The notes under the pieces are model-generated. The model was not told where the DNA came from and made no database searches. It worked only from the letters and a program-made list of their open reading frames with translations. From Ruficoccus sp. ZRK36 (lineage in GTDB: Bacteria > Verrucomicrobiota > Verrucomicrobiia > Opitutales > Cerasicoccaceae), in assembly GCF_019603315.1 (NCBI RefSeq), contig NZ_CP080649.1, positions 821,501 to 885,500 of the forward strand: a stretch of DNA of 64,000 nucleotides, given 5' to 3'. Position numbers and translations under genes: made by a program. This document shows positions 3,043-62,421 of this stretch, piece by piece (the stretch's first letter is position 1; each line of letters opens with the position of its first letter).

Positions 3043-4617
3043 TCAGGCAGCATCCTCTTTGGGCTGAAAACGCGGGTGCAGGCGCATCCAGGTCACCGTG
3101 GCAGCCGTCACCGTACTGACCAGCAGTAATATCGAAGGATTACTCAGGTTAAACTCAAAAGTCGCATGGATCAAGGCCAGGCCTGCGCCAGAAAGGATCA
3201 TCAGGTGCTCACACTCCAGCGCACGCCAATAATACAGTACAGCCCCACCCCAGAACAGAATGATCAGCACGAGCAGCCCGCCCCCGACCGCGCCCAGCTC
3301 AGCGGCAAATTCAAGGATATCATTGTGGCCATGGATGATGATTCTGGCATAGGGGAGTCCATTCTCAGGGTCGAGATTATGCGAAACCCATAACAGCCTG
3401 TACTTATCCATGAGCTGGTAGTGACGAATCGCCCAACGATAGGACCCGGCCCCCCAACCCCAGACCGGCCGATCCAGATACATTTCAGCGGTCGCTTGAC
3501 TCATCAACACCCGCATATTGGCCGAGGCGTCTTTCGTCAGCCCGGAGCGATCGCTCAGCCGAAGGGATTCAAAACGTTTTTCAATCGCAGGAAGATCACC
3601 AAAGCGTACGACAGCAAAGCCTCCGGTAGCCAAAACCAAGAGAAGAACCACGATACCAGCAATCATCGAACGGAAGCTGCCGGAGCTCAGGATACGCACA
3701 AAAAAAAGTAAAATGAACACCAACAACGCCCCGACGCTCATCAAAAACGCGCCCCGGGAGCCATTCATGGTCTGAGCCACAACAATCAGCAAACCGAGCA
3801 GTAAAAAGACGATCCCCGGATGGGAACGCTGCATACGCCTCCGGGCGCGCCTCGAGTAATAGAAAAACATCCCCAGACAAAGTGTCAGAATCGGGTAAAG
3901 GTACGCACCGGCATGATTGCGGTAGTGGAACGGGCCGAAAAAGTTTTTGTTACTGGAAGCAAACGTCCACAGCAGCGTATCGCTCCCCGTCATCTGCTGC
4001 AATACCCCTACCAGCGCTATCACTGACCCATTGATACAAATGACCCAGAAAAGCGCTTCCACACAGGAGCGGCGCTTCAGGCCGACCCAGGCCGACCAGA
4101 TGCCCATGATGACGGCCGCCCAGTTTACCAGTGCGCGCCAGGCAGAGCCATGTTCATAGGGTGCACTCACCCCCGAGGGTAGCCAGTCGATATGGTTAAC
4201 CGGCACCATCGACCACGCCCACGACGTAAGCTGCCATTGGTCCACATCCTTGTACTCCACCCGGTACGCCGGGTTCAGCCCCTGGATGATGATATATACC
4301 AGCAATAGCCCCCCCACCCAGAAAAGCGGAAAGCGCAGCAAAGAGCGCATATGCATGCGAGGAGCTTCGTCACGCGGGTTCGACGGAATAAATAATTGAA
4401 TAAAGGTAAGCAGGCTAATCCCGAAGAGAATCAACTGCGGCAGGAGCCGCATACTGCCGAGCATCCATGGCCCCAAGCCCACCAGCAGAGATAAGCCGAT
4501 AACCGTGCACCACTCATGACGACTCCAGCGTACGCGGGCACTCCCCCCCGTACGTGACGAGTGACGTCGAAAAGCTTCTACCGCACCGTATTCAGCTTTC
4601 TGCATCTGGCCCCCCAT
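3043..4617 (-). CDS. O-antigen ligase/polymerase-type (Wzy_C) membrane protein
   Basis: A 524-residue protein with about ten or more hydrophobic segments and a large periplasmic-type loop between the later helices. The loop contains [16 protein letters not shown] and [14 protein letters not shown]; the HND-x-L-x-F-x-x-E-x-G pattern is typical of the O-antigen ligase family (WaaL-like and some Wzy polymerases). It may join O-antigen or another glycan to the LPS core, or polymerise repeats; the sequence alone does not decide. Position between kdsA and gmhA favours an LPS role. The ATG at 4617 gives the longest frame; a second ATG at 4605, preceded by a G-run, is an equally likely start. Confidence 0.85.
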
Positions 4618-37047: not shown

Positions 37048-37650
37048 ATGAAATGCTTGTGCTTATTATTCAGTCTAGCGGTGCTAATCAGCTTGCCGGG
37101 ATGCGTTCAGACCGCAGGGCAGATTTTTGAGCCGGGACTGGTTGATCGGCTGGTTCTTGGCCAGACTACCACCGAGGTTGCCTTCGATTTGATGGGACCT
37201 CCACAGTCTCGCCGCACGGTGACCAAAAATGGTACCACTTTTACGATGGCCACCTATATCTATGGTGAAGCAAAAGCGCCGATCATGGGTGGTGACTATT
37301 TCATGGATTTGCTAGTCATCGAATTCTTTGAAGATACACTCCATGGCTACATCCAGCTAGCACTGGATAATCAAGCGGGCCAGCCCCTAAATATTGAGGG
37401 TACTAAAACTCTCGAACGTGATGTATCTACCAAGCAGGATGTTTTAAACCTCTTGGGACGTCCGAACGGCAAGGCCCTATCTCCCAGCAACTTGGATATT
37501 TTCGAGGACGCCTATGGCGATGAGATTTGGGTCTGGTTGAGCAGCCGTGAAGAGGGCACAACCGTCGAAGTGCAGAAAATTGTGGTCGGCTTTAAATACG
37601 ATGGCCGCGTGGACAGCGTATCCTCGTCAGTCAACGTGACGGAGTACTAA
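37048..37650 (+). CDS. Predicted outer-membrane lipoprotein, function unknown
   Basis: A 200-residue protein. [19 protein letters not shown] is a lipoprotein signal with the lipobox LPGC, so Cys19 is the likely lipidated residue. The mature part has two similar halves, one around [19 protein letters not shown] and one around [16 protein letters not shown]; such G-x-T-x-x-x-V-x-x-x-LG-x-P elements recall SmpA/BamE-like folds, but I would not assign that function. The gene is AT-richer than its neighbours. Its stop codon overlaps the fcl stop on the other strand by about four bases. Confidence 0.72.
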
Positions 37651-38594
37651 CCCCGGATGTTGCCCTTGGCCAGCTCCTGCTTGAAGTGGGCGTAGGTCTT
37701 TTCGATGCCCTCACGCAGGCCGATCTTGGGCTCCCAGCCGGTGGCGCGGATTTTTGAGCTGTCCATGAGCTTGCGGGGCGTGCCGTCGGGCTTGGAGGTG
37801 TCCCACTTCAGCTCCCCCTGGAAGCCGGTCACATCGCGCACAGTCTCGGCCAGCTCCTTGATGGTCACGTCGGAGCCGAAGCCCACGTTGACCCAGTCCG
37901 GCGGGTTGTCCAGCTCCAGCAGGTGCAGGCAACCGGCGGCCAGATCGTCCACGTGCAGGAACTCGCGCAGCGGGCTGCCCGTGCCCCAGAGGGTGACGTC
38001 CGGCGCGCCCGACTCGACCGCCTCGTGGAAGCGACGCAGCAGGGCGGGCAGCACATGGGAGTTCTCGGGGTGGTAGTTGTCACCGGGGCCGTAGAGGTTG
38101 GTCGGCATGGCCGAGTGGTAGAGCACGCCGTACTGCTTACGGTAGTACTGGCAGAGCTTGAGCCCGGCGATCTTGGCGATGGCGTAGGGCTCGTTGGTGG
38201 GCTCCAGCGGGCTGGTCAGCAGGCAGTCCTCGGTCATGGGCTGGGGAGCCTCACGCGGGTAGATGCACGAGCTGCCCAGAAAGAGCAGGCGCTTGACGCC
38301 GTGCTTCCACGAGAGGTGGATCATGTTGTGAGCGCTAGCCAGGTTCTCGTGGATAAACTCCGCCGGGTAGGTGCTGTTGGCATGAATACCGCCCACGCGG
38401 GCCGCCGCTACGATGACGGTTTCGGGCTTTTCCTCGGCGAGGGTCTCCTCGACCGCCCCCGCGTCGCACAGATCCAGCTCGGCGTGCGTGCGCAGCACGA
38501 AGTTGTCGTGACCGTCAGCCAGCAGGGCGCGGTGAATGGCGCTGCCGACCATCCCGCGATGGCCGGAGAGAAAGATTTTAGAGTCGGGGTTCAT
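37647..38594 (-). CDS. fcl: GDP-L-fucose synthase
   Basis: Epimerises and reduces GDP-4-keto-6-deoxymannose to GDP-L-fucose. A 315-residue [17 protein letters not shown] is the NADPH-binding loop, [14 protein letters not shown] and SSCIYP are Fcl-specific, and [10 protein letters not shown] holds the catalytic Tyr and Lys. Gmd, which makes its substrate, is at 23809-24852. The left copy of an inverted repeat lies 17 bp upstream of the start, so its promoter region may have been altered by the insertion next door. Confidence 0.96.
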
Positions 38595-38610
38595 GATAGA
38601 CTTTTATTTC

Positions 38611-38638
38611 ACCGCAAAGACGCAGAGACGCAAAGATG
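38611..38638. repeat. Left inverted-repeat arm flanking an AT-rich gene
   Basis: A 28-bp unit reading ACCGCAAAGACGCAGAGACG and continuing CAAAGATG. It is internally repetitive (CGCA[AG]AGA units). An inverted, nearly identical copy is at 39231-39256. Units of this type are scattered in many bacterial genomes and often border small foreign genes (established knowledge, not searched here). Confidence 0.8.
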
Positions 38639-38666
38639 TTTTTTAGTCAGGCTTCAGGCAATCAAG

Positions 38667-39179
38667 TTAGTTCTTTCTTGCTTTTCGTAGTTCATACCTT
38701 GCTTTTTTAAACTGCTTACGTTTGCACCAGTGCATGCGACCAAATGGATCTTTGATACCTACTTGATCGAATTGACTATCTAAGAAAGTCTCCGAGTTAC
38801 GATAAAATGTAAAATTCGCTTTCTCTCCTACATCGAGAGAAATTGGTAAAGTACTACTCAGTGGATCTTCGAATTGTGGGTTCAATAGGCCATAGCCTGG
38901 TTTATTTCGGATCCGATAATACAGCCTTTTATATACAGATGAATGGCGTAGCCATAGTAGGCAGGCTTTCGTTTTCCCGGGGCCGTGGTTTGTGGCTGTG
39001 ATTACTATTCTCTCGGCGCTATATTCTGGCTTCTGAGTATTTGTTATATCAGACACTGTTACATTGAGAACAAGTTTAGGTTTTAGGATGACATCTCGAT
39101 ATACATTCCATCCAACTGAGAATGCAGCAATAACTATTGATAGAATACTAATCCATATAGCCGTTGAATTATCACTCAT
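38667..39179 (-). CDS. Small membrane-anchored protein of unknown function in a repeat-bounded cassette
   Basis: A 170-residue protein counted from the ATG at 39179. One hydrophobic segment near the N-terminus ([18 protein letters not shown]) would anchor it, followed by a beta-rich domain ([29 protein letters not shown]) and a very basic C-terminus. I recognise no family. The frame is clearly AT-rich while fcl and polX on either side are G+C-rich, and it is bracketed by inverted copies of a CGCAAAGACGCAGAGACGC-type repeat, both signs of recent acquisition. An upstream in-frame start at 39215 is less likely. Confidence 0.65.
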
Positions 39180-39230
39180 ATCATTATATCGCAAACCGTC
39201 GAAGGCTAGATGCAATCAAAAACTCACTGC

Positions 39231-39256
39231 CTCTGCGTCTTTGCGCCTTTGCGGTT
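39231..39256. repeat. Right inverted-repeat arm flanking an AT-rich gene
   Basis: CTCTGCGTCTTTGCGCCTTT followed by GCGGTT is, with few mismatches, the reverse complement of the unit at 38611-38638. It lies 42 bp before the polX start. The two arms enclose about 590 bp containing a single AT-rich gene. Confidence 0.8.
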
Positions 39257-39297
39257 CAAAACTTGAACACCATCAGGGAGCGGCTACATTTCCTCCC

Positions 39298-41055
39298 ATG
39301 GAAAAAGCCGACATCGTCGAAGTGCTCGAAGCCATTGCCGAGTTGCTCGAACTCAAGGGCGAGAACGCCTTTAAGATCCGGGCCTACCAGAACGGTGCCC
39401 GCTCGCTGGAGACGCTCGACGAGGACCTCGGCACGGTCATCGAGGAGGACCGCCTGGGTAAGATCAAGGGCATCGGTAAGGCGCTGGTGGAGAAGATTAC
39501 CACTCTGCACGAGACCGGCGAACTGGAGTATTTTGACAAGCTCAAGGCCTCCGTGCCCGCGACGATGCTCCAGATGCTGGAGATCCCCGGTCTCGGCCCG
39601 AAGAAGATCAAGAAGCTCCACGACGAGCTGGGCGTGGAAAGCATCGAGCAGCTCACCGCCGCCTGCAAGGACGGTAAAGTCGCTGAGCTGGAAGGCTTTG
39701 GCGAAAAGACGCAGGAGAAGCTCCTGGCCGGGATCGCCAACCGCGAGGCCTACGCCGCCCGTCACCGCTGGGCCGATGCGGAGGCCGCCTCCGCGCCCAT
39801 TCTGGAGGGCTTGCGCGAGCTCAAGCAGGTCAAGCAGGCCGAGGCCGCGGGCAGCCTGCGCCGCAAGCGTGAGACCGTCGGCGACCTGGACTTTCTCGTG
39901 GCCGCCACCGAGCCCGGCCCGATCATGGACTGGTTTACCGCGCAGGACGGGGTGGTCGAGGTCACCGCCAAGGGCGAGACCAAGTCCTCTGTCCGCTTGG
40001 AGGGCGGCCTGCAGGCGGACCTTCGTGTCGTCCCACCCGCACAGTTCTTTTACGCGCTGCACCACTTCACCGGGAGCAAGGACCACAATGTGCGCATGCG
40101 CCAGCGGGCACTTGAGCGCGGGCTCAGCCTCTCCGAGTGGGGGCTCTTCCCGGAGGACACGCGCGGCTCAAAGGAAAACGCTCCGAAGCCCAGCGAACGC
40201 GAGCCCGAGCCGATTGATGGCGAGGAGGAGCTCTTTAAGAAGCTCGATCTGGCCTATATCCCGCCTGAACTGCGCGAGGACAGGGGCGAGATCGAAGCCG
40301 CCGCAGAGGACCAGCTGCCCAAGCTCGTCGAGCCGGAGGACATTCGCGGCGTTTTCCACAACCACACCACCGCCTCCGACGGGCGCGCCACCCTGGAGGA
40401 GATGATGCAGGCTGCGCAGGACCTGGGATTCGAGTATCTCGGCATCGCCGACCACTCGAAGTCCAGCTTTCAGGCCAACGGCCTCGACGCGGATCGCCTG
40501 GCTGAGCAGATCGAGCAGATTAAAGCCCTGAATGATGCAAAAAAGTTTAAAACATTTGTGTTTACCGGCTCTGAGGTGGATATCCTCTCGGACGGTAAGC
40601 TGGACTTCCCGGACGAGGTATTAAAGCAGCTCGACTGTGTGGTCGCCTCCATCCACGCGGGCATGACCAAGGACGAAAAGGCCATGACGAAGCGGCTCGT
40701 CAAGGCACTGGAAAACGAGCACGTCACCATGCTCGGGCACATGACCGGGCGGCTCCTGCTGCGTCGCGAGGGCTACCCGGTGGACACGGCAAAGGTCATC
40801 GATGCGGCCATCGCCAACGGCAAGATCATCGAGCTGAACGCCAACCCCTGGCGGCTCGACATGGACTGGCGTCTCTGGCACAAGGCAGCCGAGCGCGGCC
40901 TGTTGACCTCGATCAATCCCGACGCCCACGCCACCGACCAGCTGGATTTCTACCGCAACGGCGTCTACGCCGCCCGGAAAGGCTGGCTGGAGCCGAAACA
41001 CATCCTCAACACCCGCCCTCTGGCCGAGGTGAAGAAATATCTGGGCTGTGCGTAA
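39298..41055 (+). CDS. polX: Family X DNA polymerase with PHP domain (PolX, polymerase/3'-5' exonuclease)
   Basis: A 585-residue DNA repair polymerase. The N-terminal 8-kDa/HhH part includes [18 protein letters not shown]. The palm has [19 protein letters not shown], with GDLD giving two catalytic Asp. The C-terminal PHP domain (from about residue 340) begins [11 protein letters not shown] and continues [20 protein letters not shown] and [10 protein letters not shown], so the His/Asp/Glu set for two to three metals looks complete and exonuclease activity is likely. The ATG at 39298 is chosen; the open frame extends to 39064 only through the inserted cassette region. Confidence 0.94.
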
Positions 41056-60496: not shown

Positions 60497-62421
60497 AGCC
60501 ACCACTGAAATTCGGGCCTAAACAGCCCTACGACGTCATTGTCTGCGGAGCCGGGCATGCTGGCTGCGAGGCTGCACTAGCCGCAGCACGCATGGGGGCT
60601 GATACCCTGCTCCTGACCGGCAATATCGATACAATTGCCCAAATGAGCTGTAATCCGGCCATCGGTGGCCAGGCCAAGGGGCATATCGTGCGTGAGATCG
60701 ATGCCCTGGGCGGTGTCATGGCCCTGAATGCCGATACCACAGCCATCCAGTTTCGCCTGCTCAACGCCTCAAAGGGCCCTGCCGTGCAGGCACCACGTGC
60801 CCAATGCGATAAAAAGGCCTACCAGTTCCGCATGAAGCACATCATCGAGCTGCAGCCGGACCTCACCCTGTTTCAGGCGCTGGTCGAGGGGTTAATCTTC
60901 GAGGATGACGCGGTTAAGGGTGTTCGGACGAACATGGGCATCGAATTCTACGGTAAAAGCGTCATCGTCACCACGGGCACCTTCCTGCGCGGGCTGATGC
61001 ACATCGGCAACAATCGCAACGAAGGCGGCCGACTGGGTGACTTTACCGCAAAAGGCCTGTCCGGCAGCCTTAAAGAGGCAGGGATTGAGCTCGAACGGCT
61101 TAAAACCGGTACGCCGCCGCGCATATTGGGCTCCAGCATCGACTTCAGCGTCTGTGAAGAGCAGAAGGGCGACGAGAAGCCCACGCGCTTCGCCTTCTAC
61201 GACACCCATTTCGGGGAGGAATTGTTCCACGTGGAACAATTTGAGCAAAACCCAGAGTGGGATCGTCGATTGTTCCACGTGGAACAATCACACCAGCGAC
61301 TCCTCGGCTGGCCACCTGGGGCTGACCAGGTATCCTGCTGGGAGACGACGACCACGGGGCAAACCGGCGAGGTCATCCGCCAGAACCTCCATCTATCTCC
61401 GCTCTACGGTGGCATGATCGAGGGGGTAGGGCCACGCTACTGTCCAAGCATCGAGGATAAGATCGTTCGTTTCGCAGACAAGCCCACCCATAAGCTCTTT
61501 TTAGAGCCTGAAGGTCGGAATACTGACGAATGGTACATCAATGGCCTATCCAGCAGCCTCCCATTCGAGGTACAGATCGAGATCCTTCACAGCGTACGTG
61601 GGCTGGAGAAAGCCGTGATGCTACGCCCCGCCTATGCCGTGGAGTATGATTTTGCCCCGCCGACCCAGATTTTTCCCTCCTTGGAGTCCAAAAAGGTCTC
61701 AGGTTTGTTCTTTGCTGGCCAAATCAATGGCACCTCAGGCTATGAGGAGGCAGCAGGGCAGGGGCTTTTAGCAGGTATCAACGCCGTCCAGAAGCTTCGC
61801 GGCGGGGAACCGCTGATCCTTGGCCGCCACGAGGGCTACCTCGGGGTACTGGTCGATGACCTGGTGACCAAGGGCACGAAGGAGCCCTACCGCATGTTCA
61901 CCAGTCGCGCTGAGTACCGCCTGCTCTTTAATCACGGTAGCGCTGAGGTCCGACTAGGCGGCCACGCCATAGAGCTCGGACTCGTAGGAGAGGGCAGGGC
62001 AGGGCGCGTCCGTGAAAAGCTCACCCAGATCGAACACTGGACAGATAAGCTAGAAACGACCACGACCCGTGGGGGTACCTACGGCGACCTGCTGCGCAGG
62101 AACCGCAATGAGACGGAAAGCCTGCTACCAGCGGACTTTCTCGCCCTGCCGCAGGCTACCCGGGACGAAGTCCTGTACGACATCTGCTACCGCGGCTACC
62201 GAGAACGTGAGCTGCGGCACATCGAAAAGCTGAAAGACATAGCTAAAATCAAGCTCCCCAAGGACTTCGACTACACGGCGATCAAGGGCTTGCGCAAGGA
62301 AAGCGCCTTAAAGCTCGATGAAATCCGCCCGCTGGACCTCGCCCAGGCAGGCCGCATCAGCGGGGTCAACCCGGCCGACATCAGCTTGATCATGATCGCC
62401 CTCAAGGCTCGCCGAGGCTAG
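60493..62421 (+). CDS. mnmG: tRNA uridine-5-carboxymethylaminomethyl enzyme MnmG, carrying two parS sites in frame
   Basis: FAD-binding partner of MnmE. The 642-residue protein begins [20 protein letters not shown] (FAD loop) and has [60 protein letters not shown] and the C-terminal helical domain ending [10 protein letters not shown]. Relative to E. coli MnmG, residues about 237-285 look expanded, and this segment contains LFHVEQ twice (244-249 and 260-265), each encoded by a perfect parS palindrome. The ATG at 60493 gives the coupled start; the frame from 60481 is longer by four residues. Confidence 0.96.
61223..61238. promoter_or_regulatory. parS site 1 (ParB-binding palindrome)
   Basis: TGTTCCACGTGGAACA is a perfect 16-bp palindrome identical to a parS form known from Pseudomonas (established knowledge). 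With its flanks the symmetry extends to 20 bp (61221-61240). It lies in mnmG and encodes part of LFHVEQ. ParA/ParB genes are not in the window. Confidence 0.9.
61271..61286. promoter_or_regulatory. parS site 2 (ParB-binding palindrome)
   Basis: A second perfect TGTTCCACGTGGAACA, 48 bp downstream of the first and in the same reading frame, with symmetry extending to 22 bp (61268-61289). Because the distance is 16 codons, both copies encode LFHVEQ. Confidence 0.9.

Follow-up and report, generated by a model that had tools for sequence, protein, structure and literature searches.

A small gene cassette between fcl and polX in Ruficoccus sp. ZRK36 as a putative cargo-swapped relative of GxxExxY-associated, arm-bounded elements

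Introduction

Among described systems, REPIN-RAYT is the nearest by behaviour to the locus reported here. In that system, doublets of REP sequences are moved by REP-associated tyrosine transposases, according to the accessible part of PMC3116915. As far as that part goes, the likeness consists of pairs of inverted short repeats, mostly small and non-coding, of a resident gene near the same repeats, and of an apparent co-evolution between gene and repeat. On the other hand, the genome studied here lacks a Y1 transposase, the defining enzyme of that system; its arms consist of iterated units and lack the GTAG or CGTC ends seen in REPs (as given in the accessible part of PMC3733652); and a PDDEXK-family gene lies inside the arms, where other cargo can also be found. 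MITEs are likewise small, inverted-ended and non-autonomous, but here there is no consistent target-site duplication and no parent transposase was found.

Repeats of the TCAGTTG type, such as ttgtcagttgtcagttgtca, are presumably the short tandemly repeated repetitive sequences (STRR) of cyanobacteria. ttgtcagttgtcagttgtca appears as a dispersed intergenic repeat of Nostoc in PMC2408588 (Table 3, the paper being available in part) and equals the arm of one of our four-helix-bundle elements (L419). Dispersed intergenic arrays of short tandem units are thus common to both cases, but the available part of PMC2408588 makes no mention of pairing or gene framing. A small gene of the four-helix-bundle type within a compact insertion is also found in 23S rRNA intervening sequences with their IVS protein (PMC11270868, partial text); these insertions lie inside rRNA genes, whereas our cassette lies between protein genes. 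In the open literature, a scope that left most subscription papers and preprints outside, we found no account of GxxExxY or of these arms as an element; two papers contain the word GxxExxY, as an incidental mention in their available text.

The window, i.e., the whole stretch of 64,000 nucleotides analysed here (Ruficoccus sp. ZRK36, contig NZ_CP080649.1, positions 821,501 to 885,500), carries between fcl and polX a cassette that can be filed under a known kind, the small inverted-repeat-bounded element with a partner gene. We lean towards reading it as a non-autonomous, cargo-swapped member of a family of arm-bounded elements associated with GxxExxY genes, whose interior would be exchanged by recombination at the arms. 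The two GxxExxY copies of this genome sit between arms of the same type; the window gene itself is not a member of the GxxExxY family, and therefore only a non-autonomous relative is claimed.

The window cassette

The cassette is bounded by two 25-nt inverted arms (38611-38635 and 39231-39255), which are 88% complementary, lie 595 nt apart and contain a perfect 15-nt core. Within the window, the 19-mer of the arm (up to 3 mismatches) has 3 matches, all at the two arms, against 0.03 expected from shuffles. This count rules out a chance origin of the pair and upholds the inverted repeats reported in a preliminary description of this DNA, which had missed that each arm consists of three tandem units of ~8 nt (CGCAAAGA-CGCAGAGA-CGCAAAG). 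The left arm (38610-38638, plus strand) reads CCGCAAAGA CGCAGAGA CGCAAAG with the outer edge ATTTCAC, and an identical arm occupies the same site in the congener G003. The right arm (39231-39256, minus strand) is the inverted copy, CCGCAAAGG CGCAAAGA CGCAGAG, with the outer edge TTGAAC. Both fit the grammar of the inverted arms described below, namely about three 7-nt CRCNRAG units with a period of 8-10, and together they form an inverted doublet of a dispersed repeat, as REPIN-like elements do.

The neighbouring genes are fcl on the left (37647-38594, minus strand), coding for a GDP-fucose synthase-type epimerase with 85-91% identity in congeners, and polX on the right (39298-41055, plus strand), with 85-90% identity. 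As first described, the fcl start (38594) is 17 bp from the left arm and the polX ATG (39298) about 42 bp from the right arm. The interior between the arms (38639-39230) is AT-rich, with 39.2% G+C vs 60.0% for the window, and is not common to the congeners at this site.

A single gene occupies the interior (38667-39179, minus strand), coding for 170 aa from an ATG, or for 182 aa from an upstream TTG at 39215, with one N-terminal membrane segment (19-residue hydropathy peak of 1.98 near residues 5-24). The product gave no family match in Pfam, NCBIfam, PADLOC or PHROG, in agreement with the initial assignment to no known family. Nor is it GxxExxY (TIGR04256, cut-off 35 bits), since 0 NCBIfam families were recovered at E ≤ 5 and at E ≤ 1. 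The predicted model is poor (pLDDT 44.5) and the structure search made with it was uninformative. No transposase is encoded inside the cassette, as had been noted at the outset.

Among 387 genomes of the phylum, this protein has two clear homologues, distant and sporadic (L071, E 2.2e-18; L072, E 3.1e-17), a third match at E 0.007 being left out of the count. There was no match in the searched members of its own genus, family or order, so that the same gene with the same neighbours in distant relatives, the finding that would have spoken against an inserted unit, was not encountered. Likewise, its absence from close relatives at the site rules out a fixed gene that has been conserved together with fcl and polX. 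In viral contigs, too, a search with the protein yielded no relatives. Neither homologue has arms beside it, which counts against the cassette being a cargo-swapped relative of the GxxExxY elements. L071 lies near a gene that, read from the sequence, resembles a type I restriction specificity subunit, and the gene after L072 codes for another small protein that looks membrane-anchored.

Arm pairs in the genome and across phyla

A search for the arm and the reading of 14 stretches, plus one locus (L324) reached through GxxExxY, yielded six arm pairs of 222-641 bp in the 3.76 Mb genome, all six convergent. Besides the window gene, they enclose a 124-aa protein with a signal-like N-terminus (C1:188279-188817), two GxxExxY genes (1718805-1719342, E 6.6e-43 to TIGR04256 and 2.8e-41 to PDDEXK_3; and about 1933127-1933578) and, in two cases, non-coding sequence (1571550-1571771 and 1572907-1573129). 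The genome-wide repeat search proposed in the preliminary description has therefore turned up other small genes framed in the same way. Both GxxExxY elements have arms of the CGCAAAG type. In the element between hflX and ppdK, the left arm matches the left and right arms of the window at 21 and 22 of 23 positions, respectively. For seven further arms there is no identically spelled partner; a divergent partner of another spelling lies 60 bp from one of them, and at least two of the single arms sit, by eye, in similar small palindromic stretches.

Outside this genome, exact matches to the 23-nt arm are present in at least 115 stretches belonging to many phyla, and a degenerate form is present in 26 of 188 genomes of the class, with no instance of the reversed control pattern among the matches listed. 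These pairs are for the most part short, without coding sequence, and some arms stand alone. The threshold of the scan of the 115 loci was unspecific (346 matches, against 226 for the complement control) and therefore only the orientation asymmetry was used from it: neighbouring arms within 3 kb were convergent in 101 cases and divergent in 39, and mostly lay less than 100 bp apart. The class of pairs 300-1200 bp apart shows no clear excess (10 convergent vs 8 divergent), which counts against a family of gene-bearing elements to which the cassette would belong. The opposing scenario of a repeat found mostly singly and without genes is half borne out, since in ZRK36 the single arm sites are about as many as the paired ones and pairs in other phyla mostly enclose less than 100 bp.

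The seven unpaired sites, together with the short spacing and the 10 vs 8 count across phyla, favour an explanation in which each arm is a small dispersed repeat in its own right (STRR/REP/MITE-like), of a kind that builds up between genes. Two such repeats would have come to lie around the window gene independently, and the pair would not form a unit. We consider this unlikely. It does not fit the convergence of all six pairs in 3.76 Mb, nor the interiors that change beside a retained left arm, nor the much higher frequency of arms around GxxExxY and four-helix-bundle genes than around ParE genes or shifted windows (see below).

With regard to a phage origin, the degenerate 23-nt pattern was also found in 82 stretches of viral contigs; a motif scan of the viral arm loci (L104-L183) saw no GxxExxY gene. 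In a member of the Pirellulales (L232:184-4031), three consecutive arm-bounded cassettes contain an SPFH/Band 7 fragment, an unassigned ORF and a DUF4261 gene, respectively; arm cassettes can thus form arrays.

The same sites in congeners

The genes fcl and polX are adjacent also in G001 and G003, while in G002 a gmd-like gene lies between them. In G003 the left arm is unchanged and in the same place, and is followed by a different, non-coding sequence; homology with the window extends across the left arm as far as 38644 and is found again from 39296 onwards. By eye, this interior of G003 (L048) is framed by an inverted repeat of its own, AACAGGAGGAAGC..., and contains a second repeat type, CCACGGATC... 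In G001, homology stops at 38581 and resumes at 39297, and the interval holds a different 95-aa ORF without arms. A clean empty site was therefore not seen in these relatives: G003 keeps an arm, and G001 and G002 carry other sequence. Of the original proposal that a unit was dropped between fcl and polX, what stands is the foreign composition and the content that varies among congeners.

A second site shows a similar change. Between hflX and ppdK, ZRK36 and G001 have a common GxxExxY element, with proteins that are 93% identical. In G002 the left arm is kept, the homology to ZRK36 stops at the inner end of this arm (L035:2330) and it resumes just outside the right arm; an acyl-carrier-like gene seen by eye in this interval was dropped, the longest ORF being of 99 aa. 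At two sites, fcl/polX (ZRK36 vs G003) and hflX/ppdK (ZRK36 vs G002), the interior has thus changed beside a retained left arm. At both, the left arm alone is retained and not both arms, which counts against exchange between two persisting arms. At the PLD/ABC site, the 124-aa cassette is common to ZRK36 and G001, and G002 has a different interior.

At another GxxExxY site, between a sugar-kinase-like and an SDR gene (E site), the element is present in ZRK36, G001, G002 and G005. Here the alleles of ZRK36, G001 and G002 are only 56-61% alike, whereas the syntenic flanking genes are ~90-96% alike. The ZRK36 allele is at most 57% and the G001 allele at most 61% identical to the other alleles at this site, no closer than unrelated loci. 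Three arm spellings are found in these three genomes, each inverted within its own element: CGCAAAG in ZRK36, CACAGAG in G001 and CACGAAG in G002. The last is found also in G005, a member of a different genus from G002, and the two GxxExxY proteins are 80% identical. Finally, G003 has a remnant at this site, G006 has no element, and G007 has a short arm pair of yet another spelling.

The two non-coding pairs of ZRK36 are inverted elements of ~222 bp with pyrC between them (L034:2051-2272 and 3408-3630; C1:1571550-1573129). By eye, and within each of ZRK36 and G001, the middle part of one element resembles the inverted middle part of the other, a sign of concerted evolution around a conserved gene; G002 also has both elements.

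GxxExxY genes and their arms

GxxExxY (TIGR04256; PF13366, PDDEXK_3 nuclease superfamily) was found in 116 of 188 genomes of the class. It is present in 24 of the 26 arm-bearing genomes vs 92 of the 162 others (p 0.0003), a difference that might stem from the host or from genome size. When arm loci from many phyla served as the entry point, 32 of the 35 genomes contained GxxExxY. Flank alignment gives a reason for this excess, namely that the GxxExxY genes carry paired arms.

In this analysis, the upstream flank was aligned with the reverse complement of the downstream flank, and a score of at least 14 was taken to indicate paired arms. The score was reached by 36 of 55 GxxExxY loci (60 in all, 5 of which lacked the motif or enough flank), by 4.3% of 440 mismatched pairs and by 0 of 275 shuffles. 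Similarity in direct orientation also reached 14 in 27% of the 55 loci, which counts against arms defined by their inversion, as our reading of the cassette has them. The reversed control was unsuitable in one flank comparison because the periodic arm matches it too. Under a uniform protocol, which kept 29, 27, 28 and 24 of 30 loci per set and dropped odd match lengths and truncated loci, paired arms were found at 23 of 29 GxxExxY loci of the class and 21 of 27 from other phyla (mismatched pairs, 12.6% and 8%), and at 0 of 24 loci of the ParE toxin control. Shifted windows (0 of 117) and polX loci (0 of 49) were equally negative.

The arms of GxxExxY elements consist of about three 7-nt units with a period of mostly 8-10. 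Their spelling varies between elements (CGCAAAG, CACGGAG, CACAGAG, CACCAAG, CGCAGAT, CACGAAT, CGCTAAT, CATGAAG) and agrees between the two arms of one element. This holds even within single genomes, where copies differ in spelling: 9 of 11 copies in G529 and 5 of 6 in G558 reach 14, with a median protein identity among copies of 39% and 42%, respectively (11 of 14 fetched loci in G529, 3 being without the motif, and 6 of 10 copies in G558). Furthermore, arm similarity correlates with protein similarity over 41 elements (r 0.36, permutation p 0.0005, Mantel test), a set that takes in a few doubtful alignments (L326, L401, L407). Two GxxExxY proteins that are 79% identical (L386 and L392) are both flanked by CACAGAG arms, and the genomes that carry them were reached via loci of Sumerlaeota and Acidobacteriota; the whole unit has probably been transferred between phyla.

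Six GxxExxY homologues have an invariant D, E-x-K and Q-x(3)-Y, which we take to be the residues expected of RecB/Cas4-like PDDEXK nucleases. Profile matches to Cas4 are weak. The predicted model is middling (pLDDT 65). Its top structural matches include several PDDEXK enzymes, but none of these matches reaches significance.

Four-helix-bundle genes

The genes of the four-helix-bundle family (TIGR02436; loci L408-L437), whose products are presumably the rRNA-IVS protein family (23S IVS-type), have the same design: inverted heptamer arrays frame 25 of 28 of them at a score of at least 14. They were found in 75 of 113 genomes. The period of their arms is 7 vs mostly 8-10 for GxxExxY, and over 64 arms the sequences are more alike within than between the two families (p 0.0005). 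We know of no nuclease motif in these proteins. As they share the architecture, a nuclease is not needed to explain the design, and it may not be the general engine.

The presumed relation of the four-helix-bundle proteins to rRNA intervening sequences also suggests that the arms could act in RNA, with a stem that insulates or processes the insertion in a transcript, as in 23S rRNA, and with selection on the stem keeping the arms alike. When the window cassette is folded as DNA, its arms pair with each other, albeit weakly (z -1.67). This explanation appears very unlikely: the genes on either side of the window pair are divergent and another pair immediately precedes a terminator, the A-for-G differences between arms would produce A-C mismatches in one transcript, and the change of interiors at fixed sites is left unexplained.

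Alternatively, the agreement between left and right arms might be a by-product of template switching during replication and of slippage among tandem units, with no protein recognising the arms. Such mutational processes are known to make repeats of this kind alike, and the pair of elements around pyrC shows signs of concerted evolution in three genomes. We regard this origin as quite improbable, since period and spelling differ by protein family (8-10 vs 7; p 0.0005), arm spelling follows protein similarity, and ParE genes are without arms.

Mobilisation and mechanism

The preliminary description had proposed mobility in trans or by recombination between the repeats. Recombination at the repeats is plausible; the target-site duplication that transposition would predict was not seen. 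Over 79 pairs, including that of the window, exact direct n-mers (n = 2-9) showed no consistent excess, and the TTCA/TTCA duplication at the window was a single case that did not generalise. A Y1 (RAYT-type) transposase (PF01797) has 0 matches in ZRK36 and none in G002, G003 and G558, which rules out RAYT/IS200 mobilisation in ZRK36, and no transposase ORF was noticed beside the arms inspected in this genome.

These results bear on a further explanation, in which a classical DDE or HUH (RAYT/IS200-type) transposon acts in trans and the cassette is a MITE with captured cargo. The inverted ends, the short non-coding relatives and the lack of a transposase inside would agree with it, and REPIN-RAYT pairs offer a precedent (PMC3116915, accessible part). 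Given the absence of a consistent 2-9 bp duplication, of Y1_Tnp in the four genomes and of a transposase ORF beside the arms, we hold it to be highly improbable.

Under the favoured reading, that of a cargo-swapped relative of the GxxExxY elements, the protein of an element would recognise the iterated units of its arms, and GxxExxY would be the enzyme acting on them, cutting at or between the arms. Repair of the break would then draw on another arm-bounded copy, which would give a new interior between persisting arms. GxxExxY would act in trans on the window cassette, which would use arms close to those of the resident hflX/ppdK element and whose own gene would be passenger cargo. Short non-coding arm pairs would be MITE-like remnants.

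More tentatively, these elements may represent a widespread minimal class of mobile element, in which one small GxxExxY or four-helix-bundle gene lies between inverted arrays of short units with lineage-specific spelling and family-specific period (8-10 vs 7). The protein would read its own arms and drive the replacement of interiors, and orphan genes would ride as swappable cargo at fixed docking sites. This would offer a candidate role for two very common families of small proteins, an account of dispersed intergenic repeats with CGCAAAG, CACAGAG, CACGGAG and TCAGTTG spellings, and a simple code linking a protein to the short units on either side of its gene. At the window locus, it would explain the presence of an orphan AT-rich gene between two conserved genes without a transposase.

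Elsewhere in the window, two identical 20-bp palindromes, ATTGTTCCACGTGGAACAAT, are located 28 bp apart (61221-61240 and 61269-61288). They resemble what we take to be ParB-binding parS sites, which would mark an origin-proximal region.
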